DNA of 64,000 nt. Origin: an uncultured Tateyamaria sp. Lineage in GTDB: Bacteria > Pseudomonadota > Alphaproteobacteria > Rhodobacterales > Rhodobacteraceae. The translations under genes were made by a program, and so were the position numbers. Positions 1,641 through 59,787 of this stretch are shown piece after piece; position 1 is the stretch's first letter; every line of letters begins with the position of its first letter. The DNA lies in the NCBI RefSeq assembly GCF_947497045.1, contig NZ_CANMEU010000003.1, positions 1 to 64,000 on the forward strand. Direction: 5' to 3'. The notes beneath the pieces were generated by a model. It saw nothing but the letters and a program-made list of their open reading frames with translations, was not told the DNA's origin and made no database searches.

Positions 1641-1657
1641 CGCCTGACCTTGATCAC

Positions 1658-1700: not shown

Positions 1701-1774
1701 ACGCAACATCATAACACCCTGTAAAACATGGTGTTAATTGAAATCATTAGTGATTTGGGGTCAAGGAAAATAAA

Positions 1775-1821
1775 TGGAGGCGAGTACCGGAATCGAACCG
1801 GTGTACACGGATTTGCAATCC
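1775..1821. repeat. attL of element A (47-bp tRNA-Cys 3' fragment)
   Basis: Identical to 13065-13111 and to the 3' part of the tRNA gene at 59714-59760 (begins TGGAGGCGAGTACCGG, ends TTTGCAATCC). Identity stops at the 5' side of the anticodon stem, so this copy cannot make a tRNA. To its left lies the IS-broken integrase. Confidence 0.9.
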
Positions 1822-1861
1822 AATGTTTTATCGTTATTTGACAGGCTATTAGGTGGAAATA

Positions 1862-1902
1862 GGTATCACGACAAATCCAGAACTATCGGCGAACATGATA
1901 CC
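1862..1902. repeat. Inverted repeat GGTATCA...TGATACC
   Basis: Seven-base perfect arms at 1862-1868 and 1896-1902 are separated by 27 bp, in the leader between attL and the first gene of element A. It may be an operator or part of an origin of transfer. No recognisable nick-site consensus is visible. Confidence 0.35.
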
Positions 1903-1952
1903 GGTAAAATCGGGGGCATTCCTGCGGTTCTGACGCCGGTTTGGGGCGCTCA

Positions 1953-2798
1953 ATGAGCCGCCATAGCTTTGATCCTGACATCGCCGCACTGGTAGGGCTG
2001 AACGCAGCGGTGATTTTCCAGAATATCACCTTCTGGATCGAGAAGAACCAAGCCAACCGGCGCAATTTGCGGGATGGGCGCTATTGGACCTACAACTCAA
2101 TCTCCGCCTTCGCCGAGTTGTTCCCGTATTTGACAGAAAAACAGATCCGCACGGCGTTGGATAAGCTGATCAAATCAGAGCTGATCCTGAAGGGGAGCTT
2201 CAGCGATGATCGTTATGATCGAACATGCTGGTACGCGTTGGGCGATTGCATTTGCCCAAATGGGCAGATCGAGTGGGCCAAAGGGGAAAATGATACATTT
2301 GCCCCTGAGGGCAAGCCGTCTGCCCCTGAGGGCAAATCCTATAAGAACAGATATAAACCAAATATAAATCCATATCCTTCGCGCGGGGTGGTGGATGATG
2401 AAGCTGAGAAAATCTTGGCGGCATATCCCGAGGATCGCATCCGCCGGAGAGCGGATTGCTTGTTGGCGATCCGGGAGATCCTGACGAGTGGTATCACTGC
2501 TGCCGATCTGATCGAGGCTGTTCAATCCTATGCCAGTGAAAGCGCGGGTTTCACCCGTTCCAAGGTTTGCTTTTCGGACAATTGGTTCAGCTCTGAGCGT
2601 TGGCAGCGGTATGTCTGCGATGCCCAGATACAGCGTGAGGCCGCGAAAGCCAAAGAGGCCGAGGCGCTGAAAGGGCTGGCGGTTTGGATCGCAGATCGCA
2701 GCCCGCTTTGTCGGCATATTTCGCCCAGCCAAATCACGGCGCTTTTGGCGGCTGAACTGGTGACGCCGTTGCAAATTCAGGCGGCAGGGCTTGGCTGA
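1953..2798 (+). CDS. Replication-initiator-like protein of element A
   Basis: 281 aa from the ATG at 1953 (a TTG at 1941 is also in frame). The N-terminus looks like a winged-helix of phage/plasmid initiator type (YWTYNSISAFAELFPYLTEKQIRTALDKL). A low-complexity linker follows (about residues 105-145). The C-terminal region starts at EAEKILAAYPEDR and contains SKVCFSDNWF and PLCRHI. The same C-terminal region occurs in the first gene of element B (13362-14225). The linker DNA holds three inverted repeats (2253-2334), as in initiators whose origin lies inside the gene. The stop overlaps the mobC start by one base. Function is inferred from architecture. Confidence 0.6.
   Translation: MSRHSFDPDIAALVGLNAAVIFQNITFWIEKNQANRRNLRDGRYWTYNSISAFAELFPYLTEKQIRTALDKLIKSELILKGSFSDDRYDRTCWYALGDCICPNGQIEWAKGENDTFAPEGKPSAPEGKSYKNRYKPNINPYPSRGVVDDEAEKILAAYPEDRIRRRADCLLAIREILTSGITAADLIEAVQSYASESAGFTRSKVCFSDNWFSSERWQRYVCDAQIQREAAKAKEAEALKGLAVWIADRSPLCRHISPSQITALLAAELVTPLQIQAAGLG
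2253..2334. repeat. Three inverted-repeat iterons inside the initiator gene (candidate origin)
   Basis: TGCCCA-AA-TGGGCA at 2253-2266, TTGCCC-CTGA-GGGCAA at 2299-2314 and TGCCC-CTGA-GGGCA at 2321-2334. The last two share 15 identical bases and are offset by 21 bp. They fall in the linker between the two protein domains. This is the layout of lambda-O-like initiators that bind iterons in their own gene. Confidence 0.55.
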
Positions 2799-3271
2799 TG
2801 GGGAAAACAGAACCGTCTTCAGTGCAAAGAGCAAGGCGACCCATGTCATACGCTGGCGCATCTGACACGGGACCTTGCGAGGGGTGGCAAGCCTCCCCTT
2901 CGAACCCCACCGGCGGGGGCAAGCCCCACGCCAAAGCAGCCCTGACCGAGACATTTGTCTTTCGGTGCAACGCGGCTGAAAAGGCAGAACTACGCGCCAA
3001 GGCTGAGGCGGCTGGCGTTCCCGCTGCGACCCTCTTGCGTGAGGCGCTTGGCCTGACGGAGGCGCGCCGCCGCAAGCCAATGCCACGCGTCGATCCGGCC
3101 TTGAGGCTGGCGGTCGGGCGCATCGGCGGTAACCTTAACCAGATCGCTCGGGCTACGAACCGAGCTTTGCTGGCGGGGCGAATAGAGCTCGACACGCTGG
3201 CCCTCGCGCGTCAGCTCGTGGTGATCGAACGTCAGCTTGCCCAGCTCCTCGATGAGGTGCGGCAATGCTGA
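2798..3271 (+). CDS. mobC: MobC-like relaxosome accessory protein
   Basis: 157 aa. The C-terminal half has the MobC/BfmC signature (VGRIGGNLNQIARATNRAL). The middle contains a ribbon-helix-helix-like segment (ETFVFRCNAAEKAELRAKAEAAG). MobC proteins bind oriT and help the relaxase open the DNA. The start overlaps the stop of the initiator gene (TGATG), and the end overlaps the relaxase start by 7 bases, so these genes are probably translationally coupled. The first 40 residues are Pro/Gly/Ser-rich, and an internal start such as M16 is possible. Confidence 0.75.
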   Translation: MGKTEPSSVQRARRPMSYAGASDTGPCEGWQASPSNPTGGGKPHAKAALTETFVFRCNAAEKAELRAKAEAAGVPAATLLREALGLTEARRRKPMPRVDPALRLAVGRIGGNLNQIARATNRALLAGRIELDTLALARQLVVIERQLAQLLDEVRQC

Positions 3272-4815
3272 TCAAGTTCTTTCCCAATGGCAAAGGCGTG
3301 GGGGCCGGTCCTGTCGGCTATCTGATCGCGGATGAGGTGCTGGCCTATGATGACAACCGCGACCTGATCCGCGATGCCGATGGCCAGCCCCAGACAGTCA
3401 CGCGGCATCCGCTGCCGGAGGTTTTGCGGGGCAATCCTGATCGCACCGAGGCGCTGATTGACGCCAGCAACAATCAATGGACCTATCGCGCGGGTGTCAT
3501 CAGCTTTGCTATTGAGGACGCACCGACTGAGACCCAGCAGCTCGAAGTCATGGACGCCTTCGAAGGGCTGGCCTTTGCGGGAATGGACCCTGAGCAATAT
3601 GATATGCTCTGGGTCCGCCATACCCACGAAGATCGCGTTGAGCTGCATTTTTGTACGCCTCGGCTGGAACTGACCACAGGCAACAGTCTGAACATTGCAC
3701 CACCCGGCTATCAGAATGCCTATGACAGCCTGCGTGACCTGATGAACAAGACTCACGGCTGGGCCGATCCGATGGATTTGGAGCGCACCCAAGAGGTGCA
3801 GGTGGTGGCTGAGGCTCCAACTCGTGCGCAGGGCCGCGATGAGTTGCATGACTGGATTCTTGATCAGATCAGCATTGGCAGCATCACTGACCGTGCCAGC
3901 ATGGTCGATGCTCTGACAGATGCGGGCTTCGATATTCCCCGCGCCAGCAAAAACTACATCACCGCCAAAGACCCGGAAACCGGCGAACGCTGGCGGCTGA
4001 AAGGAGAGATTTTCAATGAAAACTGGCAAGCCACCCCGGCTGAGCGAGAAATTGAACGCGGATCTGGACTTGATCCGACAGGAACATGCCACCTTGATGA
4101 ATTCTCAATTGGAGATCTTCAGGACCGATTTCAGCGACATTGCGACAAGCGCGCTGAATACAATCGAGACCGATATCCGCTATTTTCTGAGCGACAGCAG
4201 GAGCGAATTGCAGAGGCGCAGCGAGACGATCCGGCGTTGGCTGACGATATCGCCTTGGGTGATCGCAGGGCTGATCTTGGTGTGGATCACCTCGACCGTG
4301 GCGGTGAGCTGGCTCTGGATGACCTTTTTGACGCGTTCGGAGCTGACGGAACTGGGCCTGACACGGATCGAACAGGCGGGGCAGATTTGGCTGACGCTGG
4401 ATCCCGATCAGACCGAAATGAAAACCTGCACGATGGCGGGAACACCGATCATCTGCATCGAAATCAGGGGGCAATAAATGACGACACCCCTGACAGCCTT
4501 GGAACGCGATTTGCTCGCCTGCGTCGAGCGGTTGGTGACGGCCTGCGAAACCTCAGCGCAGGAATTGCGCGCCTTGGAAGCACGCTCGACGAACGGGATC
4601 GAGAGCAAAGTGAATGGGTTGGCGCATTGCGTGGCGCTGCTGATGAAATCGCATCTCTTGTCGGTCGCCACATTGGCCGACTTGCTGACAGAGGAGCAGA
4701 CCTACGAGACGCTTCAAGAGGGCTTAGAGGCCAGCTTGAAGTTAGCGAAACGCGCCGAACAACGGCTGAACGAGACCTGAATGAACAAGAGCGCGGCCAT
4801 AGTCATGGCCTTTGA
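3265..4815 (+). CDS. mobA: MobA relaxase of ColE1/MbeA type
   Basis: 516 aa. It would nick oriT and lead the strand in transfer. Residues about 110-150 carry WVRHTHEDRVELHF followed by TPRLELTTGNSLNI, which matches the ColE1-type MOBP relaxases (motif HxxxDRxELNF). Those use an H-E-N triad; here the last residue is His (ELHF). The C-terminal half is hydrophilic, coiled and repetitive in Asp/Arg/Gly, and its DNA also encodes two other proteins in the +1 frame (mobB and mobD). It overlaps mobC by 7 bases. No coupling protein is encoded in this element. Confidence 0.8.
   Translation: MLIKFFPNGKGVGAGPVGYLIADEVLAYDDNRDLIRDADGQPQTVTRHPLPEVLRGNPDRTEALIDASNNQWTYRAGVISFAIEDAPTETQQLEVMDAFEGLAFAGMDPEQYDMLWVRHTHEDRVELHFCTPRLELTTGNSLNIAPPGYQNAYDSLRDLMNKTHGWADPMDLERTQEVQVVAEAPTRAQGRDELHDWILDQISIGSITDRASMVDALTDAGFDIPRASKNYITAKDPETGERWRLKGEIFNENWQATPAEREIERGSGLDPTGTCHLDEFSIGDLQDRFQRHCDKRAEYNRDRYPLFSERQQERIAEAQRDDPALADDIALGDRRADLGVDHLDRGGELALDDLFDAFGADGTGPDTDRTGGADLADAGSRSDRNENLHDGGNTDHLHRNQGAINDDTPDSLGTRFARLRRAVGDGLRNLSAGIARLGSTLDERDREQSEWVGALRGAADEIASLVGRHIGRLADRGADLRDASRGLRGQLEVSETRRTTAERDLNEQERGHSHGL
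4016..4477 (+). CDS. mobB: MobB/MbeB-like membrane protein nested inside mobA
   Basis: 153 aa, read entirely within mobA in the +1 frame. Start ATG 4016 follows AAAGGAGAG. The N-terminal 70 residues are helical and polar. One or two transmembrane segments follow (ISPWVIAGLILVWI and VAVSWLWMTFL). ColE1-family plasmids encode mbeB and mbeD inside mbeA in another frame, with MbeB membrane-associated and MbeD helical. Position, frame, membrane segment and a good ribosome site all agree, so I treat this as a real overlapping gene and not a shadow. Confidence 0.7.
   Translation: MKTGKPPRLSEKLNADLDLIRQEHATLMNSQLEIFRTDFSDIATSALNTIETDIRYFLSDSRSELQRRSETIRRWLTISPWVIAGLILVWITSTVAVSWLWMTFLTRSELTELGLTRIEQAGQIWLTLDPDQTEMKTCTMAGTPIICIEIRGQ
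4478..4780 (+). CDS. mobD: MobD/MbeD-like protein nested inside mobA
   Basis: 100 aa, wholly inside mobA in the same alternative frame as mobB. The ATG immediately follows the mobB stop (TAAATG), with AGGGGG upstream. The protein is helical and Leu/Ala/Glu-rich (ALERDLLACVERLVTACE), as in the MbeD family. Its role in mobilization is poorly understood even in ColE1. The order mobC-mobA with nested mobB-mobD repeats the ColE1 arrangement. Confidence 0.65.
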   Translation: MTTPLTALERDLLACVERLVTACETSAQELRALEARSTNGIESKVNGLAHCVALLMKSHLLSVATLADLLTEEQTYETLQEGLEASLKLAKRAEQRLNET

Positions 4816-4831
4816 AACGAAAGGAAAATAG

Positions 4832-5134
4832 ATGAGTTTACCCTTTGATCACTTTACCATGTCCTACGGGCAGTCCCGCGACTATGGCATCGATTACCGA
4901 ACGTTTGAAAAGGTGGCATGTTTGCCCGAAGGCGTTCCGTTGATGGCCCTTGCAGGGGTTTGGGGTGACTACAGCAACATCCGTTGTCTGTTCATCGACG
5001 AGGAAGGCAACGGGTATTGTCGAAATATCAGTGGCAGAGGTGGTGAATATATCATCCGAGAACTGGGCCTGAACGCCAAGGATCTAAAAGTGGGGCAGAT
5101 GGTCATGTCAGTAGCGCCGCCACCGCAGCTATGA
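4832..5134 (+). CDS. Small hypothetical protein
   Basis: 100 aa, ATG preceded by AAAGGAAAA. No signal peptide or membrane segment. A mixed alpha/beta composition with ISGRGGEYIIRELGL near the end. It begins 16 bp after mobA and may be the last gene of the mobilization operon. I do not recognise the family. Confidence 0.55.
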   Translation: MSLPFDHFTMSYGQSRDYGIDYRTFEKVACLPEGVPLMALAGVWGDYSNIRCLFIDEEGNGYCRNISGRGGEYIIRELGLNAKDLKVGQMVMSVAPPPQL

Positions 5135-5466
5135 TTTGTGTCATATAATGTTGAAATTTTAGCTTTGGAGGGCTATGTGAATGGCAGTAAAGGGATGGTC
5201 TAACCGTCCGAATATTAGGCCAGCTATGGCCTGCCTTTTGATTTCTTGGCTATGTGCAGAGCGTTAAAACTGGGAAGTCGAGCGCGCGGCGTTAATTGAC
5301 AGGTAACGCATTTGAACCTATATTCCTCCCCATAAGGATACCAGATCGACTGTGAGGTTCCTTCCGCAACGCAAGTTGTCCAACTGGAATAGTGGATAAG
5401 GCCTAGGCCGAAGAGAGCGTCGAGATAGCCAAGGAGTTGCCTGCAAAGGTGGCTCCTTCGGTCGTT
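5135..5466. other. Gene-poor spacer of element A
   Basis: 332 bp between the mobilization block and the convergent minus-strand genes. It is AT-richer than its flanks and has only very short open frames. I see no tRNA, clear terminator or repeat. Confidence 0.5.
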
Positions 5467-6042
5467 CTAGCGCCTGAAATATTTGACCTTTTTGCCTTTG
5501 AGCGCCTGACCGATGACGACTGCAATTTTCACTTTCTGACCGTTTTCTGGCTGCGGTCGATGGTGGGCGCTTTCGACAAACAGGCGCAGTTTGTGCCGGA
5601 TGCCGTCGAATCTGCCCTTGTGGGGGCGAAGCGTGAAAAAGGCGGTGTAGGCCGTTCCATCACCCAACATCATCGTGGCGTTATATGTGCCATAATTTCG
5701 GTCTGATGGCGTAAGGTAAAGGCGGTTTTGCGGCAAGGTTCCAAGCAGTTCCGCCAGATCCGTTGAGGCCGCAAACCGATGCGGGCAAAATACGCGAGGG
5801 CGTATGCCGTCCATGATTTGCACCTGGCCCGCGTGTTCTGCGGTTTCAAAGGCTCTGGTCCAGCAATGGCAGGAATATTCGACAAGAATATTAACCCGGT
5901 CGCCCTTGGGCAAATCGACCGTCAATATATGTGGTGTGAGGTGAGCGACATGTAGGCGGGTGCTGTCGATCACCTGCGGCGTTACCGCCACGCCGCTGGT
6001 GTCGGTCAGGGTGCCGTCAGCCGCCACAAGATGCCGCGTCAT
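5467..6042 (-). CDS. Conserved-looking hypothetical protein
   Basis: 191 aa, soluble. Contains LVEYSCHCWTRAFE and RVFCPHRFAAS, a Cys/His pattern (CHC...C-H) that could bind metal. A later segment (YNATMMLGDGTAYTAFFTLRP) looks like beta structure. Its ATG overlaps the stop of a 27-codon frame (6039-6122) as ATGA. It lies downstream of the Hsp70 operon but is separated from it by about 220 bp. I cannot assign a function. Confidence 0.6.
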   Translation of the reverse strand: MTRHLVAADGTLTDTSGVAVTPQVIDSTRLHVAHLTPHILTVDLPKGDRVNILVEYSCHCWTRAFETAEHAGQVQIMDGIRPRVFCPHRFAASTDLAELLGTLPQNRLYLTPSDRNYGTYNATMMLGDGTAYTAFFTLRPHKGRFDGIRHKLRLFVESAHHRPQPENGQKVKIAVVIGQALKGKKVKYFRR

Positions 6043-6122
6043 ATGTTGGCCTCAAGACGCTTGGCTTCAGTGGCTATGCGCGCGCGGAAATAGTAGATGC
6101 GGAATTCGGAAGATTTGTTCAT
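6039..6122 (-). CDS. Tiny open reading frame coupled to the next gene
   Basis: 27 codons starting MNKSSEFRIYYFRARIATEA, ending ATGA over the start of the 191-aa gene. A longer frame to 6245 exists but reads poorly. The overlap suggests a leader peptide or translational coupling. It is low confidence as a functional protein. Confidence 0.35.
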   Translation of the reverse strand: MNKSSEFRIYYFRARIATEAKRLEANI

Positions 6123-6259
6123 GGGGTGCTTGTGCGGTAGGAACCTTATTCTGGATGGGAGCGGGAATATGCGTGGAGAGCCGTTTTGCAATTCAACGGA
6201 AACGCCACCCACATTTTTTTTATAGGAATGTGGAGGCGTTTCCATAAATTGATTTTTGG

Positions 6260-8776
6260 TCAGGTTCCCAACAGATGTGCTAGCTCAACAATCTCTGCGG
6301 CATCTGCGCCAGTGGAAACACGATTGCCGAACATTTGCCCAATGACAGCCCGTAGGCCTTCGACATCGTTAGATTGCACAGCTTCGATTCCAGCTTGAAT
6401 AAGGCGTTCATGAAGCTCGGGATCCACTGCTAGTGTATGCTCCTCAGCTAGTTGTTTGAAGATGGCGATCAGGAAGTCCGGGGTTTCAGAAAGAACCTTC
6501 ATGCGGATGCCCTGCATTTCGTCCAAAGAACGGCGTGCAGCGTCATAATTTTTCTCACGAATCTCACGGCGGGCGGAAACAAGCAATTTGTCATGGCGTT
6601 CTGCATCGACGCCCTGAGCATTATCGCGAAGCTCATCAAAAGAGGTTTCTGCCTTGGATACTTCTTCAGTAAGAACCCTTTCTTCATTCTCAGGGGCCAT
6701 TTTCAGCAGTGCGATATCTTGTCTGATCTTACGCGCTTCTTCTGCTACGGAACGATGTGTGTCAGCATCTACAGAAGTGGAAAGTGCAGAATGTTGGCGC
6801 TCAATACGCTTCCTAATGTTACCACTGGGATCGGCATTTTCATCCAAGGTACCATCCAGATCTTCCAAGTCGCCTTCCGCGCGAGCCAGCATGGTTGCCG
6901 CCAGCTCTGCGCCGCGCTCTCCATCGTACGGGATACCGCCATCGGCTGAACGGTATAGGTTGGTGGCATCGACAACGCGCCCCAGAGAAGGAAGTTCCAC
7001 GGCAAAGCTCAGGGTGCCATTGTCACTCATTTGCCAATCAATGACAAAATCATCACCACGATTAATCCGTTCCCCGCGCTCAAGTTCGTCACGACAGCTC
7101 AGATGAAAGTTTCCTATGTGCAGATTATGTTCCGGCGTGTCTATTTCCTCGACCATGTCGTAAAATTCCACGGCGATAAAATCATCTTCTCCACCGGTCA
7201 GTGTTTTGCCCGCACGGAAAGATTTTTTACCCCGTGCAGGCAAGGCAGTTCCTTTTTTGACAAGTACTTCTAGTTTATTGCGCTCATACCCAACGAGGCC
7301 GTGCTGAACCTTAACAGCCAGCGTATAGGTCATCGGAACACTTGCTGCGCTTGCCTGGGATTTGCTGATTACGATTTCGCGGGATGCATCTGGCACCGTC
7401 TTTCCATGCGGATCAAATACCGTAATCTTGAAACGGTTGTCACCATCTTTCCGGGCGGTAACGTTGATGCTGAGCGGGCCAGAAAGGGGAATGCGTCCAG
7501 TAGAAGAGCCTTCTTCATCCAAAATTTCCACCTCATGCCCCGCCGGCATATCTGGTGCAGGTTTGAGACGGACTTTTGCTGTTTCGCTCGAGACGCGGGA
7601 CTTATAATCGATTGCCAAAGAAACACTGCCTGTCACAGTTTCTTTTTGCTTGCCACTTTTTTGGGAGGAGCTTTCTCCATCCCATTCGCGGCTTTCGGCA
7701 AAAATGGCAGCTCCTGTTGCGACTGCGGTCATAGGGTCAAGGCCTCTTTCAACCCTAATAGCTAATTCGGCCTCTAGCATGTCCCAAATAACAGGCATCT
7801 TAGAGGGGCCGCCAATTGGAACGATTTTTGAAATGTCTTCGTTCCTGTACCCATTGTCAGATATGATCTTTCGGCACAGATCAATTGATTCATCCACTCG
7901 GTCTCTGATTAAATCGTTGATTTGGTTGCGGGTAAGATCAATCGAAACATAGATTTCCTCTCCGTCTTCGTCGGTCATTCTAATTTCATCTTCGGTGGCG
8001 AAAACGGACGTAGTTGGCGAGGCTGAGAGAAGAATTTTCGCTTTTTCAACAGCATGCTTACACATTGTCGAAAGGTGGTTGTATTTTTCATGGCGTTGAA
8101 AGTCTGTCGGAAGGGAAAAGTTTTCCAATAGCCATGGGCGTACAATGCTATCAAAAATTATCCGATCAAAATCACGCCCGCCCAGCATGTTGATCCCTTC
8201 ATGAGCGATAACGTTTACAACACCTGCGGTACTCATCACGAGTGCGAGGTCAAAAGTACCCCCGCCGAGATCATAGACGAGGAAGACGCCATCTTTTTGC
8301 TTACTGTGAGAGATTGCCGCGAGGGCGGCCGCTACGGGTTCTTGTAGCAAACTAACTTGCTCCAGCCCCGCCAATCGTGCAGCAGCAATCGTATCTTCAC
8401 TTTGCATCTGATTGAACGCGGCTGGCGTTGTGATAACAACCCCTTCAATATCTTGGCCACCGGCTTCGGTCATCGCTTGCCCGACCAGTGCTTTGATTAT
8501 TTCCGCGCTACATTCAACCGGTGTCCACGTTTGCCCTGCAAAGGTAACGGGGTTTTTTGTTCCCATTGAACGTTTGAACCCGGCAGCAACATTTTTGGGA
8601 GCTGACAAAAGGCGGTCATACGCAGACTTACCGATGAAACGGTGTCCGCGTTTGTCGAGATATATCACACTGGGCAGTACATCCGTGCCATCCGCTGTTT
8701 TGAATAGGCGCGTCGATCCATCCATATGGCCGACAACTGCTGAGTTTGAGGTTCCAAGATCAATGCCGAGATACAA
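6260..8776 (-). CDS. Enlarged Hsp70 (DnaK-like) chaperone
   Basis: 838 aa; E. coli DnaK is 638. The ATPase domain is intact: phosphate-1 GIDLGTSNS (residues 4-12), phosphate-2 YDLGGGTFD (about 168), adenosine motif IGGPSKMP (about 320). A linker of about 30 residues precedes a beta-rich substrate-domain-like region (about 400-600). A long helical tail lacks the acidic DnaK C-terminus. Start is TTG with AAGGA 8 bases upstream. It is the last gene of a five-gene operon and begins 3 bp after the GrpE-like gene. The extended C-terminus and mobile context make it an accessory Hsp70, not the housekeeping DnaK. Confidence 0.9.
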   Translation of the reverse strand: MYLGIDLGTSNSAVVGHMDGSTRLFKTADGTDVLPSVIYLDKRGHRFIGKSAYDRLLSAPKNVAAGFKRSMGTKNPVTFAGQTWTPVECSAEIIKALVGQAMTEAGGQDIEGVVITTPAAFNQMQSEDTIAAARLAGLEQVSLLQEPVAAALAAISHSKQKDGVFLVYDLGGGTFDLALVMSTAGVVNVIAHEGINMLGGRDFDRIIFDSIVRPWLLENFSLPTDFQRHEKYNHLSTMCKHAVEKAKILLSASPTTSVFATEDEIRMTDEDGEEIYVSIDLTRNQINDLIRDRVDESIDLCRKIISDNGYRNEDISKIVPIGGPSKMPVIWDMLEAELAIRVERGLDPMTAVATGAAIFAESREWDGESSSQKSGKQKETVTGSVSLAIDYKSRVSSETAKVRLKPAPDMPAGHEVEILDEEGSSTGRIPLSGPLSINVTARKDGDNRFKITVFDPHGKTVPDASREIVISKSQASAASVPMTYTLAVKVQHGLVGYERNKLEVLVKKGTALPARGKKSFRAGKTLTGGEDDFIAVEFYDMVEEIDTPEHNLHIGNFHLSCRDELERGERINRGDDFVIDWQMSDNGTLSFAVELPSLGRVVDATNLYRSADGGIPYDGERGAELAATMLARAEGDLEDLDGTLDENADPSGNIRKRIERQHSALSTSVDADTHRSVAEEARKIRQDIALLKMAPENEERVLTEEVSKAETSFDELRDNAQGVDAERHDKLLVSARREIREKNYDAARRSLDEMQGIRMKVLSETPDFLIAIFKQLAEEHTLAVDPELHERLIQAGIEAVQSNDVEGLRAVIGQMFGNRVSTGADAAEIVELAHLLGT

Positions 8777-8779
8777 TTT

Positions 8780-9157
8780 TCATTCCTTTTCATTTTTTAC
8801 GGGCTGGACGAGAATACGACCCAACCTGATTATTTTCATGTCTGCCAAAATCGCGGGTTCGATCGTTTTGGAAACGATCAACTCAACGTCATCAGCGTAG
8901 TCGCCAGCATTGTCAGCAGAAGCGGCGATCCCATCATGAAACGCTTCGCCATCGAAATCGACAACTTTGACCCCGAGCTGGTTACTCAGAAGGGAAAGCT
9001 GCCGGTCGGAAAAGGTCAACTGAGCACGCAGCCTGCGCGCCTCTTTTTCTGGCATTGCTTCAACAGCTTTGAGGGTTGTTTTCGTCAATTTCCAGTAGTC
9101 GACGCAAAGCTGTGATACAGCTTCCATTTTGTGTTCAAAATCCAGTTCATCACTCAT
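8780..9157 (-). CDS. Small protein resembling a GrpE nucleotide exchange factor
   Basis: 125 aa. The N-terminal half is helical (KLTKTTLKAVEAMPEKEARRL). The C-terminal half has FDGEAFHDGI followed by IVSKTIEPAI...IIRLGRILVQP. These resemble the GrpE pattern G-x-F-x-x-x-x-H and the final beta segment VLRPAxV. The resemblance is weak and read by eye. The case is helped by position: it lies directly upstream of an Hsp70 with a 3-bp gap. An unrelated adaptor is the main alternative. Confidence 0.5.
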   Translation of the reverse strand: MSDELDFEHKMEAVSQLCVDYWKLTKTTLKAVEAMPEKEARRLRAQLTFSDRQLSLLSNQLGVKVVDFDGEAFHDGIAASADNAGDYADDVELIVSKTIEPAILADMKIIRLGRILVQPVKNEKE

Positions 9158-9190
9158 GATTTTTCCAATTTGCGTTTTGGAGATTCAAAA

Positions 9191-10732
9191 TTACCCACCA
9201 AAAATTATCAAAAGCAGGATGATGCCGCCAATGACGACCCAATATCCAATTTTCTCATTTTTCTTCTGAGTGATCTTTTCCTTAAGTTGGACCAGCTCCA
9301 GCTTGTCATTACCCCTTGCGTATACAAGCATTTCATCGACGACTCGCGACATCCCAGAAACGTTTCCCCTGTTTCTTTCAAGCTCTTCCATTTTCCAGTT
9401 GCGATGCAAAACAGCGCGTTCTTCGTCAAGCTTTTCCCGAACTTCGGCAGACGGTGCAGCACGTGTGAAATGTATCAGGCCATTGATAATTCCAAATGCT
9501 GTTTCTGGGTCGTTACGTTCGTTGTTTATGAACAGCGCTAAGTCTCTGATAATGAGGAACGCAACAGTGTGATCACCCGGTTGTGATGTAGCTGAAACAA
9601 GCGCGGAATAGATATCAGTAACAGGCCCCCGCCGTGCCGTGGAAAAGCTGCTTTTTGCAAGATCTCGTTTTACTTTAGGCAGTTGACTTTTAGCCGCTTC
9701 ACAGGCCGCGACCAAAGGCTCCAATTGTTCGCTTTGCTGTTTTTGCTCAACCAGTGTTTCCAACTGTGCAACATCGCCTCGCAAAACTTCGGCTACGGAT
9801 TCAAGCTCTGGAAATGTGTGCAGTAGCGCTGCGGATAAGCGCTTTGCGTGATCATACTCGCCACGTTCGTTTGCCAAGGTTAGGCAGAGCTGCCGGAGCT
9901 TTTCATATACTCTCTTCGAGCGCCCTTCTTCATGCCCTTGTTGTTGTTCATAAACTTGGACAGGTTGATTTATTTCATCCCATTTGACCAGAAGTTCAGA
10001 AGCTGCATCGACAATAATGTTTAGATTAGCGCCCTCTTGTTCAGCACTTTTTATGACGTCGTCAATTTGATTGTTGAGCGTTGCCAAATCCGGTTCGCTC
10101 AATAGATCATATTGCCGAACAAACTGCGCTAGAAATGGGCTTGATGGGTCTCGATTGACCTCATACTCAACAATCTGATCCATGGTTTCGCCGGGCTTTT
10201 CTAGGGCCCACACGCCAATAGCAGCGGTTTTGGCCTGCATGGTCATTAACCGCCGCAAGGCCCCTTCAAGTTGGGCTGTGTCTATATTCGGAAAGCCCGC
10301 CTTTGAGCGATTTTCATTGAGGAAATCGAGCGTTTCGGAAATATCAACTTCCTCCCATGTTTTGATCAACTTGTGAAAGACATCATTGCTCCCTCTGGAG
10401 AACTGAGTGAGGTGAGAAAGAATGTTGCTTTTGGCAAGTTCGGGAAGATGTTCTGTCGCGCCAAACAGATTGGAATAATCCCCCGAAACCATCAGGGCGG
10501 TGATACTTGATATCTGCTCATCGCTCAGCTCCGGCAACCAAGAAATCTCCATTTCCAGCCTGGCAAGAGGTGCCAGAAGATTTTGCTGGGCGCGCTGAAT
10601 TTGCGGCAAAGAAAATGTTTCTTCAAACTCGGCATCGTCAGCTAAGTCTGTGACTTCTGGGTGTGATGATGTGTAGTTAGCTTTCAAAATATGAAAGGCA
10701 TTCTCAAGAATACTTTGTGTTTGGTTGTCCAT
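9191..10732 (-). CDS. Tail-anchored helical protein, possible J-like co-chaperone
   Basis: 513 aa, almost all predicted helix. One transmembrane segment lies at the extreme C-terminus (IGYWVVIGGIILLLIIFGG), preceded by Lys-rich residues, so the bulk should face the cytoplasm. The N-terminus (NAFHILKANYTSSHPEVTDL...SLPQIQRAQQNLLAPLARLEMEISWLPEL) recalls degenerate J-domain proteins found beside accessory Hsp70s, with HPE where J-domains have HPD. That reading is tentative. The middle region could hold TPR-like helices. It lies between a two-TM protein and the GrpE-like gene in the Hsp70 operon. Confidence 0.55.
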   Translation of the reverse strand: MDNQTQSILENAFHILKANYTSSHPEVTDLADDAEFEETFSLPQIQRAQQNLLAPLARLEMEISWLPELSDEQISSITALMVSGDYSNLFGATEHLPELAKSNILSHLTQFSRGSNDVFHKLIKTWEEVDISETLDFLNENRSKAGFPNIDTAQLEGALRRLMTMQAKTAAIGVWALEKPGETMDQIVEYEVNRDPSSPFLAQFVRQYDLLSEPDLATLNNQIDDVIKSAEQEGANLNIIVDAASELLVKWDEINQPVQVYEQQQGHEEGRSKRVYEKLRQLCLTLANERGEYDHAKRLSAALLHTFPELESVAEVLRGDVAQLETLVEQKQQSEQLEPLVAACEAAKSQLPKVKRDLAKSSFSTARRGPVTDIYSALVSATSQPGDHTVAFLIIRDLALFINNERNDPETAFGIINGLIHFTRAAPSAEVREKLDEERAVLHRNWKMEELERNRGNVSGMSRVVDEMLVYARGNDKLELVQLKEKITQKKNEKIGYWVVIGGIILLLIIFGG

Positions 10733-10751
10733 TTTGTTTCTTATCGGTTTG

Positions 10752-11024
10752 TCAAAAAATTCTAAGCTCTTTGTGGCGATGCTTCATGAGTGTTCGCACT
10801 AAACGATGCCCGATCAAAATTCCGATCGGACCTGCTGCAACCAAAAGCAAGTAAAGGGAGCGCGAAACATCCCATGTTGTTTGGCCAGAAGTCGCGATTA
10901 AACCCGTTGCGCCAACGATCAATGAGACACCACCGGCAATGGCAAGTCTGCGGGCGAATTGGAAAATCTCCCGATCACATAGGTCGAGTTCCGATTCCTG
11001 GCTGTTATAATTGACGTCTGTCAT
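10752..11024 (-). CDS. Small two-TM membrane protein of the Hsp70 operon
   Basis: 90 aa with two hydrophobic helices (LAIAGGVSLIVGATGLIA and SLYLLLVAAGPIGILIGHRLV) and short charged ends. It starts 15 bp after the XRE regulator and ends 19 bp before the tail-anchored gene. It may be a membrane partner or receptor of the chaperone set. Family not recognised. Confidence 0.65.
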   Translation of the reverse strand: MTDVNYNSQESELDLCDREIFQFARRLAIAGGVSLIVGATGLIATSGQTTWDVSRSLYLLLVAAGPIGILIGHRLVRTLMKHRHKELRIF

Positions 11025-11039
11025 ATTCGTTCTCGCAAT

Positions 11040-11444
11040 TCATAAGGTATCGAAATATTTTTTTGCCAGATCCGTTTCTGGCTCTCCGGTTTGCGCTGCT
11101 TGGTCAGCGACATAACCGATGATCTTGGACAGCTTTTCAATCGGAAGGTTCGTCCCCCTCTCGCTGTCCTCTGCAAGCACGGCATATGACGCTCTTTCAG
11201 CAAGATCCGGGCTGTCGCCTTTTTTGACCTTCCCACGTCCAGCGAGAAGCCATTCCAAGCTTACGTTAAATGAATCACAGATCGTAATGGCTGCGGCTGC
11301 GGGCAGGTCACGCTTTTCCTGCTCATAGTTTTTATAGGTCCTATCTGTCACCTCGATGGCTGCGGCCATGACCTGCTGTGTAAGGTCATTTGCCTTGCGA
11401 ACCTCGCGCAACCGCAGGCCTATTCCTGACAATTCTGTTGACAA
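11040..11444 (-). CDS. XRE-family regulator heading the Hsp70 operon
   Basis: 134 aa from a TTG start. HTH_XRE in residues 8-65 (LREVRKANDLTQQVMAAAIEVTDRTYKNYEQ...LEWLLAGRG), of phage CI-like form. The C-terminal 60 residues are helical with no peptidase motif. It is the first gene of the operon and is divergent from the Xis-like genes. A palindrome at 11467-11482 lies between them. It probably represses one or both promoters. Confidence 0.75.
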   Translation of the reverse strand: MSTELSGIGLRLREVRKANDLTQQVMAAAIEVTDRTYKNYEQEKRDLPAAAAITICDSFNVSLEWLLAGRGKVKKGDSPDLAERASYAVLAEDSERGTNLPIEKLSKIIGYVADQAAQTGEPETDLAKKYFDTL

Positions 11445-11466
11445 CAGGTGATTCCGTTCATTATTG

Positions 11467-11482
11467 GTGAAAATAATTTCAC
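11467..11482. promoter_or_regulatory. Palindromic operator in the divergent Hsp70-operon/xis promoter region
   Basis: GTGAAA-ATAA-TTTCAC, 6-bp perfect arms with a 4-bp spacer. It lies 23 bp upstream of the XRE start and 71 bp upstream of the Xis-like start. TTCACTTTGC recurs on its right side and again at 11507-11516, suggesting a second half-site. It is a likely XRE binding site. Confidence 0.5.
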
Positions 11483-11552
11483 TTTGCTGCGATTTGTTTT
11501 CTTTTGTTCACTTTGCAGAGCTGCTTCCTGAAACACAACAAAAAGGTGAATT

Positions 11553-11759
11553 GTGACCAAAACTCTCGAAACACCCAAAGAACTGGCCGAGCGTGTCGGG
11601 CTGCCTGTCACCAACATTCGGTATCTGATCCGCGAGGATATGCTGGATCATATTTTCACCGCCCCCGGCAAACGTAACCCCAAGATCCCGAACGGTGCGT
11701 GGGAGAGGTATATTGCGCAGTTTACGGTCAAGGCGCAGGTAAAGGGGGCGGGATCATGA
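11553..11759 (+). CDS. HTH/excisionase-like small protein 1
   Basis: 68 aa from GTG 11553. A MerR/HTH_17-type fold is suggested by KELAERVGLPVTNIRYLIREDML. Such proteins beside integrases often act as excisionases or directionality factors. Its TGA overlaps the ATG of the next HTH gene (ATGA). It is divergent from the XRE gene. Confidence 0.65.
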   Translation: MTKTLETPKELAERVGLPVTNIRYLIREDMLDHIFTAPGKRNPKIPNGAWERYIAQFTVKAQVKGAGS

Positions 11760-11965
11760 GGCCGAAGACCCCGCTCATGGCCAGTGAAACCACCGCCGCG
11801 CGCCTGCTGGATCTGGGGGCAAAGCAGTTCAGATATTTGGTGGATGAAGGGTATTTGCCGAAAGGGTATGAAATCGCCCCCGGCGTCGTGCGTTGGGACA
11901 CAGATACGTTGAAGCAGATCTCAAATGGTGAGGTTGGTGAAGTTCAGGGATCAATTGAATGGTGA
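11756..11965 (+). CDS. HTH/excisionase-like small protein 2
   Basis: 69 aa. I chose ATG 11756 because it overlaps the previous stop; a longer frame from 11699 lies inside the previous gene. ETTAARLLDLGAKQFRYLVDEGYLP is an HTH_17-like helix pair followed by a wing (PGVVRWDTDTLKQI). Its end overlaps the integrase start by 7 bp. Two consecutive Xis-like genes before one integrase is a somewhat unusual arrangement. Confidence 0.65.
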   Translation: MRPKTPLMASETTAARLLDLGAKQFRYLVDEGYLPKGYEIAPGVVRWDTDTLKQISNGEVGEVQGSIEW

Positions 11966-12978
11966 TCCGGCGCAAGAAATACCTGTGGCGGCATTCGTCC
12001 GGTCGCTGGTATGTGCGCAAATGCGTCAACGGCAAGATGATCTATCTTGGGCGCATCACGGCGGAGGAAGGCACCGCCGATTTTGACCACCAGTATTGGG
12101 AAATCGTGAGTGGCAAGAGGGCGGAGGTGAAAACCTCATGGACCGCACTGATTGCCGCTATGCGCGAAACCGACAAATGGGCAGGCTTCTCGCCCCGGTA
12201 TCGCAAGGATTTGGAACCTGTTTTTGAATATTTGACCGAGAAAATTGGCAAGGCGGACGTAGCTCGTCTGACACAAGCTGATATTTACGATGCGATGGAA
12301 AAGAACCGGCACCGGGTTCGGTTCGCGAATTACATCCCGACCGCGATCAGCATGTTGTCCAAGCTGGCGATCCGCAAACGGTGGCGCAGGGACAATCCCG
12401 CGATTGATATCGAACCGCTCAAAGTTCCGAAGGCGCGCAAAAAGCCGCATATCCCTTGGGCCGATTGGGCGGTGGAGAAGATGCGGGAGGAAGGGAAGCC
12501 ACTGCCTCTTCTGATTTTCGAGATTGGCGTGGGCAGTGTGCAGCGCCCCGGTGATTGGGTGGATTTCCAGTGGGGCGATTATGATGGCGAAACTCTGAAG
12601 CTGCGCCAGAACAAAACCGGCAAACCTTTGTTGTTGCCGTGCACTGAGGCGTTGAAGAAAGCCTTGGATCAGGCGAAGGCCGAGCTGGGATTCGCCCCGC
12701 ATCCTTCACGGCACATCCTGACGCGCGCAGATGGTTCTGCGATGGATTATCACGCGATGGCGCGGGTAATGGTGCGAGAGCGTAAGCGGCTGGGCCTGAT
12801 GGACTTTGATCAACACGCGTTGCGCTATCGGGGTGTGATGGAACTGGCGTGGGCTGGCTGCACCGACGACGAGATTGCCAGCTTCAGCGGCCATACATCC
12901 AAAGCCATGATCATCAAATATGCAGGCGAAGCGCGGCAAATCATGCGAGCGCGTCAGGCGGCAGCAAAGCGCAAATGA
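11959..12978 (+). CDS. int: Tyrosine integrase of element A
   Basis: 339 aa. N-terminal arm-type domain (KKYLWRHSSGRWYVRKC), SAM-like core-binding domain (about 60-165) and a full catalytic domain: Arg in GVGSVQRPGDW, Lys in NKTGKPLLLP, HxxR in DQHALRYRG, and SGHTSKAMIIKYAG with the histidine and nucleophilic tyrosine. It reads toward the right att copy, 75 bp away. It should catalyse integration and excision at tRNA-Cys. Confidence 0.9.
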   Translation: MVIRRKKYLWRHSSGRWYVRKCVNGKMIYLGRITAEEGTADFDHQYWEIVSGKRAEVKTSWTALIAAMRETDKWAGFSPRYRKDLEPVFEYLTEKIGKADVARLTQADIYDAMEKNRHRVRFANYIPTAISMLSKLAIRKRWRRDNPAIDIEPLKVPKARKKPHIPWADWAVEKMREEGKPLPLLIFEIGVGSVQRPGDWVDFQWGDYDGETLKLRQNKTGKPLLLPCTEALKKALDQAKAELGFAPHPSRHILTRADGSAMDYHAMARVMVRERKRLGLMDFDQHALRYRGVMELAWAGCTDDEIASFSGHTSKAMIIKYAGEARQIMRARQAAAKRK

Positions 12979-13052
12979 CCCCGAACAGAACAGGCACAGA
13001 ACGTGAAACTGATACTAGAGGTGATACCCAATGAGCAGAAAAATCCATAACA

Positions 13053-13111
13053 CATTGATTTTATTGGAGGCGAGTACCGGAATCGAACCGGTGTACACGG
13101 ATTTGCAATCC
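13053..13111. repeat. Shared att site between elements A and B
   Basis: 59 bp identical to 59702-59760. The first 12 (CATTGATTTTAT) lie beyond the tRNA 3' end, and the rest is the 47-bp tRNA-Cys fragment also present at 1775. It serves as the right end of element A and the left end of element B. Sequence diverges after CAATCC. Confidence 0.9.
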
Positions 13112-13221
13112 AGAAAGAGATAAAGCAAAAACAACGGCTTAGGGGTGCAAAATGCCCCCTGACAAAAAGTGAACAAAAAGCGAAAGTTTCAAAGCCAAAT
13201 TCGCCGGTCCAAAACGAAAAA

Positions 13222-13255
13222 GGCCCCGTCACAGCGGCAACTGTGAACCGGGGCC
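13222..13255 (-). terminator. Strong hairpin with a minus-strand T tract
   Basis: GGCCCCG-TCACAG pairs with CTGTGA-(A)-CCGGGGCC around a 7-base loop. On the minus strand it is followed by TTTTTCGTTTT, the form of an intrinsic terminator. It would stop leftward transcription from element B before it reaches the att site. On the plus strand it could act as a leader hairpin for the initiator gene. Confidence 0.6.
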
Positions 13256-13361
13256 AAATAGAAAAAGCCTGTCAGCTTTCGAAGCACATTAGCATGGGCC
13301 AGTGCTGCACCGCAAATGCTCTGTCGGCTTTTTCGTGGCCTCTGACCGGTGAGGCGATCCA

Positions 13362-14225
13362 ATGAGCTGGCGCATCGCAAATGAATGCGCCGAGCGCCGC
13401 TTTGGCAGCGCTGCGCGCAAGCAGATCATCATGTTTCTGGCCGATAAAGCGAGCGATGATGGCTCGGGCATCTGGTGCTCCAAGGGGACGATCCAGCGCC
13501 ACACAGAGCTTAGCGAGAGCACGGTGAAGCGCACCATCATCGACTTCCTGCGCGAAGGCATTCTGATCGAAACAGGGCGACGGCACTGCAAGAACGGCTA
13601 CACCGTCATTTACTGCATCGTTCTGGAGCGGGTCGCCACGCTCGAACCCACAGCTGAGCCCGACATTCAGACGGGGGTCACTGTGGACCCCGTCCAGCCT
13701 GACCCAGGTACGGGGTCCACGGTGAACGGGGTACGGGGTTCACGGTGGACCCCAAACCATCCTAAAACCATCCATAAACCACCTACGCGCAGGCGCGAGG
13801 CGGCGGCGGAGGTTGAAGATCTTGAAGCTGAGAAGATCTTGGCAGCCTATCCCGAAGACAGGGTCCGAGACCGGCGAACCAGTCTGCGCCTAATCGCTGT
13901 GGCTTTGAAGGCCGGGGTAGAGCCCGATGATCTGAAGCAGGTTGTCAAAGCCTACGCGACGGAAAGCGAGGGCTACACGCGCAGCAAGGTTTGTTTCTCA
14001 GACAACTGGTTCAAGATGCGCCGATGGGAGAAGGGGTTTGCCCAGGTGCATGCCGACCGCGAGAAGGCGCGAGAGGCCGAAGCCAAAGGCCGTGCGAGCC
14101 TCGCCGAGTGGATTCAAGAGCGTCATCCCTTGTGCCGCCACATCACCAACCGGCAGATCGAGGATTTGATAGCGTCAAAGCTGGTGACGCCCGAGCAGGT
14201 GCGCGCGGCGGGGCTGCAGGCGTGA
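13362..14225 (+). CDS. Replication-initiator-like protein of element B
   Basis: 287 aa. The N-terminal HTH_36-like winged helix (GIWCSKGTIQRHTELSESTVKRTIIDFLREGIL) differs from that of the element A protein. The C-terminal region, from EAEKILAAYPEDR, is clearly homologous to it (SKVCFSDNWF and PLCRHI identical). The linker (about residues 100-145) is encoded by GC-rich inverted repeats (13674-13753). Start ATG 13362 follows GAGG. I infer initiation of plasmid-like replication of the excised element; direct evidence is lacking. Confidence 0.65.
   Translation: MSWRIANECAERRFGSAARKQIIMFLADKASDDGSGIWCSKGTIQRHTELSESTVKRTIIDFLREGILIETGRRHCKNGYTVIYCIVLERVATLEPTAEPDIQTGVTVDPVQPDPGTGSTVNGVRGSRWTPNHPKTIHKPPTRRREAAAEVEDLEAEKILAAYPEDRVRDRRTSLRLIAVALKAGVEPDDLKQVVKAYATESEGYTRSKVCFSDNWFKMRRWEKGFAQVHADREKAREAEAKGRASLAEWIQERHPLCRHITNRQIEDLIASKLVTPEQVRAAGLQA
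13674..13753. repeat. Inverted-repeat iterons inside the element B initiator gene
   Basis: GGGGTC-N6-GACCCC at 13674-13691, GGGGTCCAC-G-GTGAAC at 13712-13727 and GGGGTTCAC-G-GTGGACCCC at 13735-13753. They occupy the linker-coding part, as the TGCCC/GGGCA repeats do in element A, but with a different sequence. This is a candidate origin recognised by the distinct N-terminal domain. Confidence 0.55.
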
Positions 14226-14298
14226 GAGCATTGGCGAAGTCTGTGGATGCAGCTACCAATGCTGCGGATTCTTATGGTGCTCAGATCATATTGTTGGC

Positions 14299-14344
14299 TT
14301 ATGACTTGGGGATCATATTGACAATTTATGACCTATGGGTCATA
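14299..14344. promoter_or_regulatory. hipBA promoter with two operators
   Basis: Two 19-bp sites 27 bp apart. One is at 14299-14317 (half-sites TATGA/TCATA), the other at 14326-14344 (TATGACC-TATG-GGTCATA, perfect arms at 14327-14344). A consensus -35 (TTGACA, 14318-14323) lies between them, so HipB bound here would block the promoter. The -10 is weak (near CATACG). Confidence 0.65.
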
Positions 14345-14365
14345 CGTAGTGGCAGGAGAACCGCC

Positions 14366-14617
14366 ATGAAGCACCTAGTTCGTACATCAAAAAACTTGGG
14401 CCACGCAATTCGTCAGGCTCGGAAGGCAATGAACCTTACCCAGAAGGAACTCGCCTCGATGAGCGGTGTCTGGCAAGAGACAATTTCCAAGATCGAGAAC
14501 GGCAGCGGCGGAACCAAGCTGGAAACAGTATTCGATTTGATCGCGGCCTTGGAGCTCGAAATTACGGTGACCGAGCGCAGCAAAGGCACATCAGACGGGC
14601 TAGAGGACATCTTCTGA
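14366..14617 (+). CDS. hipB: HipB-like antitoxin
   Basis: 83 aa from ATG 14366 with AGGAG upstream. HTH_XRE domain (LGHAIRQARKAMNLTQKELASMSGVWQETISKIENG). HipB proteins bind and neutralise HipA and repress their own operon. It ends 1 bp before the hipA start, and two palindromic operators precede it. The longer frame beginning at 13991 overlaps the initiator gene and is not credible. Confidence 0.85.
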   Translation: MKHLVRTSKNLGHAIRQARKAMNLTQKELASMSGVWQETISKIENGSGGTKLETVFDLIAALELEITVTERSKGTSDGLEDIF

Positions 14618-14618
14618 C

Positions 14619-15920: not shown

Positions 15921-15988
15921 GGTCGCAATAAAATTGCCCCTTTGAGAGCAATCTTAGAAGGAGCTTAAGTAATTGATTTTTAGGGCGG

Positions 15989-59701: not shown

Positions 59702-59760
59702 CATTGATTTTATTGGAGGCGAGTACCGGAATCGAACCGGTGTACACGGATTTGCAATCC
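59702..59760. repeat. attR of the array (59 bp, overlapping tRNA-Cys)
   Basis: Identical to 13053-13111. Twelve bases lie outside the tRNA and 47 within its 3' part. Recombination with the copies at 13065 or 1775 would excise element B alone or both elements together, leaving tRNA-Cys intact. Confidence 0.9.
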
Positions 59761-59787
59761 GCTGCGTCACCACTCCGCCAACTCGCC
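59714..59787 (-). tRNA. tRNA-Cys(GCA)
   Basis: 74 nt with CCA encoded. The acceptor stem GGCGAGT pairs with ACTCGCC. Anticodon stem-loop is GGATT-GCA-AATCC, giving anticodon GCA. The T-arm is ACCGG-TTCGAAT-CCGGT. It is the intact integration target, and its 3' part is duplicated at 13065 and 1775. Confidence 0.95.

Follow-up and report, generated by a model that had tools for sequence, protein, structure and literature searches.

Five consecutive open reading frames (ORFs) lie on the minus strand between positions 6260 and 11444 of the window, by which we mean the whole stretch of 64,000 nucleotides analyzed here (positions 1 to 64,000 of contig NZ_CANMEU010000003.1, from an uncultured Tateyamaria sp.). 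In 5′ to 3′ order they encode an XRE regulator (11040..11444; 134 aa; Pfam HTH_19, E 8.8e-11), a protein with two transmembrane segments (the two-TM protein; 10752..11024; 90 aa), a J-like, membrane-anchored alpha-solenoid protein (9191..10732; 513 aa), a short GrpE homologue (8780..9157; 125 aa) and an Hsp70 with a TTG start (6260..8776; 838 aa). The intervals between them, from XRE to Hsp70, are 15, 19, 33 and 3 bp. The ORFs are thus as an earlier, sequence-only reading of the window had described them. That reading also took the five genes for one functional operon, a view that could not be upheld: the XRE and two-TM genes go with the mobile element in which the locus lies, and the conserved unit consists of three genes, those of the solenoid protein, the short GrpE and the Hsp70, referred to below as the triad.

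The triad is a real, conserved and mobile three-gene Hsp70 machine of unusual architecture, and it probably has a role in defence. Ordinary DnaK, GrpE and DnaJ are encoded at other places in the same genome, so the triad is an extra set. Pfam returned no match for the 125-aa and 90-aa proteins and none below E 0.087 for the 513-aa protein, and a scan for promoters and terminators gave nothing above shuffled sequence. Compared loci and genomes are labelled below with L and G numbers; G000 is the genome of the window itself.

Architecture of the Hsp70 and its two partners

The nucleotide-binding domain of the Hsp70 occupies aa 1-361 (Pfam HSP70, E 3.4e-60) and contains the phosphate motifs GIDLGTSNS, DLGGGTFD and GGPS. 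Between this ATPase domain and the substrate domain there is an insert (approximately aa 385-480), which is beta-sandwich-like and has no match in DnaK. The following region (aa 501-614) resembles the beta part of the substrate-binding domain (SBD-beta) and matches that of DnaK (hhalign Prob 83.8, E 7.9e-6); 40 permutations used as a control reached at most 19.3, compared with the 46.4 observed. The C-terminus is long and, judged by eye, apparently helical. An Hsp70 with ATPase motifs and an extra long C-terminus had been described by the sequence-only reading, and both are indeed present, with the substrate-binding domain displaced by the insert. Sequence-only profile searches of solved structures gave nothing at E <= 0.01 for the Hsp70 C-terminus, the 125-aa protein or the 513-aa protein.

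Residue counts were made on 60 triad loci (54 genome and 6 plasmid loci) chosen by their GrpE-like gene. Left out of this set were L042 and L043, which are the same as L069 and L065, respectively, L047, which has the same match scores as L067, and L057 and L058, where the model found no GrpE-like gene. Strict regular expressions for the three phosphate motifs matched 45, 46 and 42 of the 60 Hsp70s, respectively. The LLLDV linker, searched for in the same strict way, is present in none of the 60, compared with 12 of 20 DnaK proteins and 15 of 26 proteins of a wider Hsp70 set; because the linker is absent, we refer to the window protein as a member of the Hsp70 family and not as a DnaK. Arg167 of DnaK is the contact for the HPD motif of J-proteins, and by a long-held rule J-proteins work on Hsp70 through HPD and this site. 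The position equivalent to Arg167 is S, A, G or T in all 60 triad Hsp70s and that equivalent to Asn170 is Q in 59 of them, as against R and N in 26 out of 26 other Hsp70s, which were chosen without a filter on that stretch.

The 125-aa protein had been called GrpE-like, and structure prediction agreed with this. The 12 best fold matches in the PDB were all GrpE, and comparison with a GrpE profile gave E 4.2e-9. The model aligns to residues 79-195 of GrpE chain 1dkg_B. When it was tested for the elements of the GrpE fold, the predicted helices of the head and the beta-wing were found; the long N-terminal paired helix is missing, the first helix of the model being formed by residues 2-33. Pfam GrpE was matched by 5 out of 48 members of the family (best 0.0025) and not by the window protein itself. 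On these comparisons of sequence and model, the 125-aa protein is a short GrpE homologue, for which nucleotide exchange on the partner Hsp70 is predicted.

The AlphaFold2 model of the 513-aa protein is an all-helical solenoid (mean pLDDT 91.4), and its best matches in a fold search were solenoids and helical repeats, none of them at E <= 0.001. The N-terminal domain (10526..10714, minus strand; aa 7-69) is J-like and lacks the HPD loop. Alignment of approximately aa 1-70 with a J-domain profile of 31 rows by hhalign gave Prob 74 and E 2.7e-5, compared with 0.31-0.56 for three controls, and the alignment score of 28.1 was reached in none of 200 column permutations (maximum 17.2). A relaxed alignment covers the length of the J-domain minus 11 residues, which are the HPD proline, the aspartate and the loop that follows, and the order of helices in the modelled N-terminus appears compatible with a J-fold. 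The HPD motif is absent from the window protein and from 58 out of 58 relatives. Two further results weaken the match to J-domains: in global mode the alignment is weak (Prob 2.84, next to the moderate local match), and no J-domain occurs among the fold matches listed for the whole model (50 rows in VIA-align). DnaJ is likewise not found among the 25 listed of the 85 Pfam families matched by members of the solenoid family. Because HPD is absent, the global match is weak and neither J-domain nor DnaJ is among the listed matches, we call the protein J-like only. The helical character, the likeness to J-proteins (here located in the N-terminus) and the C-terminal membrane anchor noted earlier all stood, but the filing of this protein as a J-protein had to be rejected.

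The anchor (9200..9250, minus strand; aa 495-511) has a hydropathy of 2.7 over 17 aa. The window copy ends at it, as do L060 and L064; many relatives extend approximately 115-155 residues further and some much more, and in these longer proteins the part beyond the anchor would be periplasmic. An RYC motif is found in 38 of the 58 relatives. The relative in Aminobacter (L037) bears peptidoglycan-binding domains. In Shewanella and Vibrio (L039 and L041) there is a separate peptidoglycan-binding protein, and the solenoid has no strong C-terminal membrane segment.

Conservation and distribution of the triad

A scan of one genome per species in 84,980 species yielded 298 Hsp70 relatives, of which the best 80 were read. 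Both partners were found at 52 of these 80 loci, one partner at two (L109 and L122, the former near a contig edge) and none at 26. The gene for GrpE is immediately upstream of that for Hsp70 in 53 out of 54 cases. The order solenoid-GrpE-Hsp70 is kept at 42 of the 52 loci with both partners; the solenoid gene is downstream in nine and split in one. The XRE and two-TM genes of the five-gene set proposed earlier are not part of this conserved unit.

Pairwise distances of the three proteins correlate with rho values of 0.77, 0.85 and 0.87 (n=43 loci). Ratios of nonsynonymous to synonymous substitution (dN/dS) were approximately 0.04-0.06 for Hsp70, 0.09-0.41 for GrpE and 0.15-0.20 for the solenoid, based on 8 close pairs, among 30 listed, that have a finite dS for all three genes. 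Of 10 whole genomes, the same five have both partners and the other five have neither, their Hsp70 being solitary; in G261, one of the five partner-bearing genomes, the partners are present only as pieces on separate contigs.

The sequence-only reading had named Hsp70 homologues without the other four genes as an observation that would refute it. Relatives that lack the partners do occur, at the 26 loci mentioned above, but they are divergent single genes. Two of the 26 (L066 and L084) are cut by contig ends and have little upstream sequence; they were left out, and the solitary set therefore consists of 24 loci. Since several more of these 24 are near contig ends, absence of partners is to be understood as local. 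Two clusters of neighbouring genes are each shared by 6 of the 24 loci. The solitary branch (L085-L086, L088, L090, L092-L093, L095-L100, L103-L104, L108, L110-L115, L119, L121 and L135) comes mostly from metagenome-assembled alphaproteobacteria or proteobacteria, with some Micavibrio, Rhodospirillales and Rickettsiales, and no partners were found nearby.

The triad set is rare. The Hsp70 C-terminus was detected in 8 out of 385 genomes of the class, 5 of the 8 lacking the partners, and full-length matches with at least 76% identity were restricted to G000, G010 and G167 among 293 genomes. Plasmid records contained the solenoid protein 13 times, GrpE 13 times and Hsp70 15 times. The 13 records are from Sinorhizobium, Aminobacter, Polaromonas, Shewanella, Vibrio and Aeromonas; the two additional Hsp70 records are from Pseudomonas hygromyciniae and Haliscomenobacter. 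Copies of the triad in Shewanella and Aeromonas adjoin Tn7-like transposition genes. Among viral contigs, one match to Hsp70 was found (L047), and it bears the whole triad; a search of these contigs with the 513-aa protein, reaching close relatives only, gave none, and no phage record matched the Hsp70 C-terminus.

Neighbouring genes were compared at 59 loci, that is, the set of 60 without L040. A gene for an AAA+ ATPase follows that for Hsp70 directly at 16 of the 59 loci; the corresponding single-linkage cluster spans 19 of the 59 and includes some distant AAA genes.

Three plasmid loci differ from the rest. In L040 (Aeromonas caviae plasmid, 1282-3779) the Tn7-associated Hsp70 is annotated as two reading frames. 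L057 (P. hygromyciniae plasmid pSDM007, 6504-11484) has a distant three-gene set in the same order (706 aa, 117 aa, Hsp70), in which the place of the J-like solenoid is taken by a TPR protein whose end weakly matches DUF6585. In L058 (Haliscomenobacter hydrossis plasmid pHALHY02) the Hsp70 is more distant; the gene directly after it encodes an AAA+ protein related to the AAA+ partner of the triads, and a TerB-family protein and BREX genes come next.

The mobilizable element and its relatives

The triad is located inside a segment bounded by identical 48-bp direct repeats on the plus strand, attL (1775..1822), which is the 3′ part of a tRNA-Cys gene, and attR (13065..13112). A third copy with 1 mismatch is held by an intact tRNA-Cys gene (59714..59787, minus strand), the attachment site. 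No match to the repeat arose in 100 shuffles, and its 38-bp core (<=2 mismatches) occurs in three places only in the own genome, i.e. attL, attR and the tRNA-Cys copy. Because exact repeats flank the segment and a third copy is present in the intact tRNA-Cys, the element was defined as 1775-13112, approximately 11.3 kb. It encodes on the plus strand a NikA-like mobilization protein (2798..3271; Pfam NikA-like, E 8.7e-11), an MbeA-like relaxase (3265..4815; NCBIfam MbeA, E 2.4e-38, under the curated cut-off; Pfam Relaxase 24.4 bits, slightly under cut-off), two small ORFs (11553..11965), possibly excisionase-like by their position, and a tyrosine integrase adjoining attR (11959..12978; Pfam Phage_integrase). 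A 191-aa protein with a weak YjaZ match is encoded downstream of the Hsp70 gene (5467..6042, minus strand). None of the ORFs observed in 1775-13112 pointed to a conjugation apparatus. With integrase, relaxase and att repeats all present, the segment is, as judged from its sequence, an integrative mobilizable element in tRNA-Cys. The genome has one more integrase gene, a partial one 89% identical to that of the element, which lies at a contig edge (G000:C24:71-772).

Integrases 86-88% identical to that of the element were found in six other genomes (G002, G006, G010, G020, G119 and G170). In G010 there is a sister element whose att copies are 11,021 bp apart and whose relaxase, integrase, XRE and two-TM proteins are 65%, 88%, 66% and 59% identical to those of the window, respectively; its triad is oriented the other way round. 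The layout is repeated in L068, where the stretch read includes one att copy. In the window and in the sister elements L068 and L069 the triad has the relaxase on one side and the integrase on the other, and its orientation varies.

Besides G010, five regions with related integrases were read (L209-L213), three of them truncated by contig ends, and the triad is absent from all five stretches. L210 keeps the XRE (63%), two-TM (44%) and integrase (88%) genes and a partial match to the relaxase. In its cargo position there are HsdR-like (3.7e-22) and HsdM-like (1.9e-142) Type I restriction subunits and a weakly TIR-like protein (3.0e-4). L213 has HsdM-like (2.7e-116) and HsdR-like (5.7e-154) genes, an XRE gene on the other strand whose product is 33% alike, and no two-TM gene. 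Type I restriction subunits are thus found in the cargo position of two out of five same-integrase elements without the triad. The remaining regions lend the defence reading no such support. In L211 the XRE, two-TM and 191-aa (86%) genes are present and the cargo is not the triad; L212 is a short stretch with a gene that by eye is ATPase-like, beside a 33% XRE; and L209 has satellite-like cargo and none of the other backbone genes. In addition, with an XRE of no more than 33% likeness and no two-TM gene, L212 and L213 have to be regarded as looser relatives of the element. A guess that L211:7516-8694 encodes a methyltransferase was abandoned, as no PDB match was obtained. In L209 (G002:C9:11500-28100) two copies of this att site flank the 88% integrase (5375-16107), and the cargo resembles, by eye, a capsid-bearing phage satellite.

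These comparisons separate the genes of the vehicle from those of its cargo. XRE is 63-67% identical in L068, L069, L210 and L211, i.e. with and without the triad. XRE and two-TM genes occur without the triad in L210 and L211, and in L068 and L069 they are on the other strand, beyond Hsp70; they were consequently rejected as parts of the machine. In fetched flanks of up to 10 kb, the two-TM protein was found at only 2 of the 54 genome loci with GrpE (L068 and L069), and a relaxase relative at only 3 of the 54 (L060, L068 and L069). Judging from this sequence evidence, the XRE, two-TM and 191-aa genes belong to the vehicle and the triad is cargo. That the set is carried by a mobilizable element had been proposed before, and the att repeats, the relaxase, the integrase and the sister elements with other cargo bear this out.

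Defence genes near the triad and its possible function

Neighbours of the triad loci match models of the Gabija, Wadjet and Lamassu defence systems. At the 59 loci there are 278 neighbours (up to three per side). PADLOC, applied at E <= 1e-10, was run on 252 of them in two sets of 130 and 122 proteins; the 26 outside the scan include short ORFs and known system or backbone genes. The matched families numbered 118 among the 130 proteins and 163 among the 122, figures which cannot be taken as counts of systems because several models match one protein, a first caution against reading them as defence. Among the 25 families listed for each set are GajB (2.3e-237), JetC (4.3e-218) and JetD (3.4e-145), as well as PDC-S28, HEC-05, LmuA, LmuB and a TIR effector. 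Matches to IetA are probably the AAA+ partner of the triad itself. As a control, all 114 neighbours of solitary Hsp70s were scanned and matched 34 families, with a best value of 4.0e-41 among the 25 listed.

With about equal measures of belief and doubt, we propose that the triad is a mobile machine for remodelling by Hsp70, tethered to the membrane, carried as cargo by the 11.3-kb element in tRNA-Cys and most likely directed against phages. In the suggested mechanism the solenoid protein would sit at the inner membrane and capture a client or, alternatively, would sense the envelope through the domain that lies beyond the anchor in longer relatives. It would recruit the Hsp70 through a contact other than HPD-Arg167, and the short GrpE would reset the ATP cycle of the Hsp70, so that cycling remodels or holds the client. 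Phage proteins might be remodelled or held at the membrane, or the machine might be triggered by envelope or misfolding signals during infection. Since two sister elements have restriction cargo and triads elsewhere are found among defence genes, the clients are most likely phage proteins or envelope proteins damaged by infection. The versions of some other bacteria have in addition the AAA+ protein directly after Hsp70 and, where scanned, a separate peptidoglycan-binding protein. A stronger form of the proposal is possible but doubtful, namely that the immune effector is the dedicated, membrane-tethered pair of Hsp70 and GrpE, which would need neither nuclease nor toxin, would be driven by the HPD-less J-like solenoid through a new contact on Hsp70 and would be exchangeable as cargo with restriction systems.

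A number of results weigh against a defence role or against the mechanism suggested for it. The best control hit may exceed the value given above, as 25 of the 34 families were listed, and the control loci are mostly chromosomal and outside islands, so the contrast is in part one between islands and the core genome. Against PADLOC 2.0.0 the triad proteins themselves gave weak local matches only (Hsp70 1.9e-4, solenoid 2.3e-4, GrpE none), and nothing in them was recognised as a nuclease, a toxin or another domain that could kill. With the LLLDV linker present in none of the 60 triad Hsp70s, allostery of the canonical kind may be inoperative. Finally, the Arg167 equivalent is D, A, E or V in 24 out of 24 solitary relatives; since these have lost the residue too, its loss is a trait of the subfamily and is not tied to the HPD-less partner. 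Association is not function, and the support for a role in phage defence is by association. The earlier suggestion of phage defence therefore gains from the neighbouring defence genes and the restriction cargo of sister elements, but the triad has neither a recognised effector nor a full-length PADLOC match.

The main rival, which we regard as unlikely, is that the triad is a mobile proteostasis module, a fitness trait and not immunity, which shields the host from protein damage by heat, by oxidation or in the envelope. All three recognisable parts belong to the chaperone cycle, and no effector domain was recognised; the AAA+ gene directly after Hsp70 at 16 of the 59 loci recalls disaggregase partnerships, and the domains beyond the anchor and the peptidoglycan-binding domains in relatives would fit envelope stress. 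However, the host already owns DnaK, GrpE and DnaJ, restriction subunits occupy the cargo position of two out of five same-integrase elements, and triad neighbours match many defence models.

Published systems provide partial precedents. Kaur et al. 2020 (PMC7159879) describe GTPase-centred predicted conflict systems in which approximately 14% of the GAP1-N2 neighbourhoods contain HSP70 and GrpE, typically next to an FNIII protein to which DnaJ or TPR is fused. These GAP1-N2 systems are the closest precedent in the literature covered, and they lower the novelty of the triad. They share with it HSP70, GrpE and a DnaJ/TPR-fused protein, membrane segments, wall-binding domains and a predicted role in conflict. 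In contrast to the triad they are centred on GTPase and FNIII-repeat proteins and found mainly in Actinobacteria and Firmicutes, whereas triad loci are mostly proteobacterial and their J-like domain has no HPD. No GTPase or FNIII protein was found among the proteins of the element scanned with Pfam, and none was recognised by eye in the 32 recurrent neighbour clusters listed. CnuD of CoCoNuT (PMC11090510) is an Hsp70-like protein in a defence setting, described with degenerate Walker-like motifs and likely RNA-binding, beside McrB/McrC homologues; the window Hsp70 retains its ATPase motifs, and there is no McrBC among the three genes. With bNACHT25 (PMC12169576) a chaperone is used in phage sensing, but it is the host DnaJ and not a dedicated mobile machine, and the defence protein is a NACHT. 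The PADLOC model for IetA of IetAS is matched by the AAA+ partner at L124 (E 4.4e-26); only the AAA+ component was compared, and this AAA+ gene is a partner at Hsp70 loci.

The first and third of these precedents would also suit another anti-phage account, in which the Hsp70 machine serves only for sensing or for setting a threshold, a part already suggested for chaperones in conflict systems, and killing is left to an unlinked or unrecognised protein, for instance the anchored protein making a membrane lesion. HSP70-GrpE-DnaJ parts occur with transmembrane and wall-binding domains in the conflict systems predicted by Kaur et al., bNACHT25 requires host DnaJ for sensing, and the membrane anchor is retained in three of the shortest solenoid copies (L060, L064 and the window). 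Nevertheless, no effector was found in the triad, and the model of the anchored protein is a solenoid, with a single predicted membrane segment, and not a pore-like fold; we consider this account less likely still than a proteostasis module. The weakest candidate, that the triad helps the element with its mobilization, with its relaxase or with its stability (the conjugation-assist option of the sequence-only reading), agrees with its place between relaxase and integrase in a relaxase-bearing element but is very improbable and was dropped as first choice, since elements with 86-88% identical integrases move with other cargo and no triad, and only 3 of the 54 loci have a relaxase relative.

On the preferred reading, a mobile and most likely anti-phage Hsp70 machine, the triad may represent a new kind of bacterial antiviral system. 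The sequence-only reading had stated that no system of this composition was described; no description of the triad as such was recognised in open-licence literature, but the GAP1-N2 precedent with HSP70, GrpE and DnaJ qualifies that statement. If the proposal is true, mobile immunity has taken over a complete chaperone cycle, and proteostasis would be tied directly to phage defence. It would also provide a natural test of the HPD-Arg167 rule: HPD and Arg167 are both missing in conserved partners under purifying selection, which implies either another mode of coupling or another job for the J-like domain. The canonical DnaK-DnaJ-GrpE system shares with the triad the Hsp70 ATPase domain, the SBD-beta-like region and the GrpE fold; in the triad, unlike the canonical system, there is an insert before the substrate domain, LLLDV is absent, Arg167 and Asn170 are replaced, GrpE is short and the J-like protein is HPD-less and membrane-anchored. 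The element, for its part, has a defined cargo slot in which further systems may be sought.

The surroundings of the element deserve a brief description. A second att-bounded segment (13113-59787) extends from attR to the intact tRNA-Cys. It contains a HipBA-type pair (13991-15920), an MmeI-like Type IIG restriction enzyme (17648-20380; 5.7e-279), a PDC-S67 protein (20377-21030), a helicase-like protein (21020-23074) and a T5orf172 protein (23067-24260). Just left of attL, a DUF6538 protein, perhaps a second integrase, is encoded at 111-1712, which suggests that yet another element is stacked at the same tRNA-Cys.

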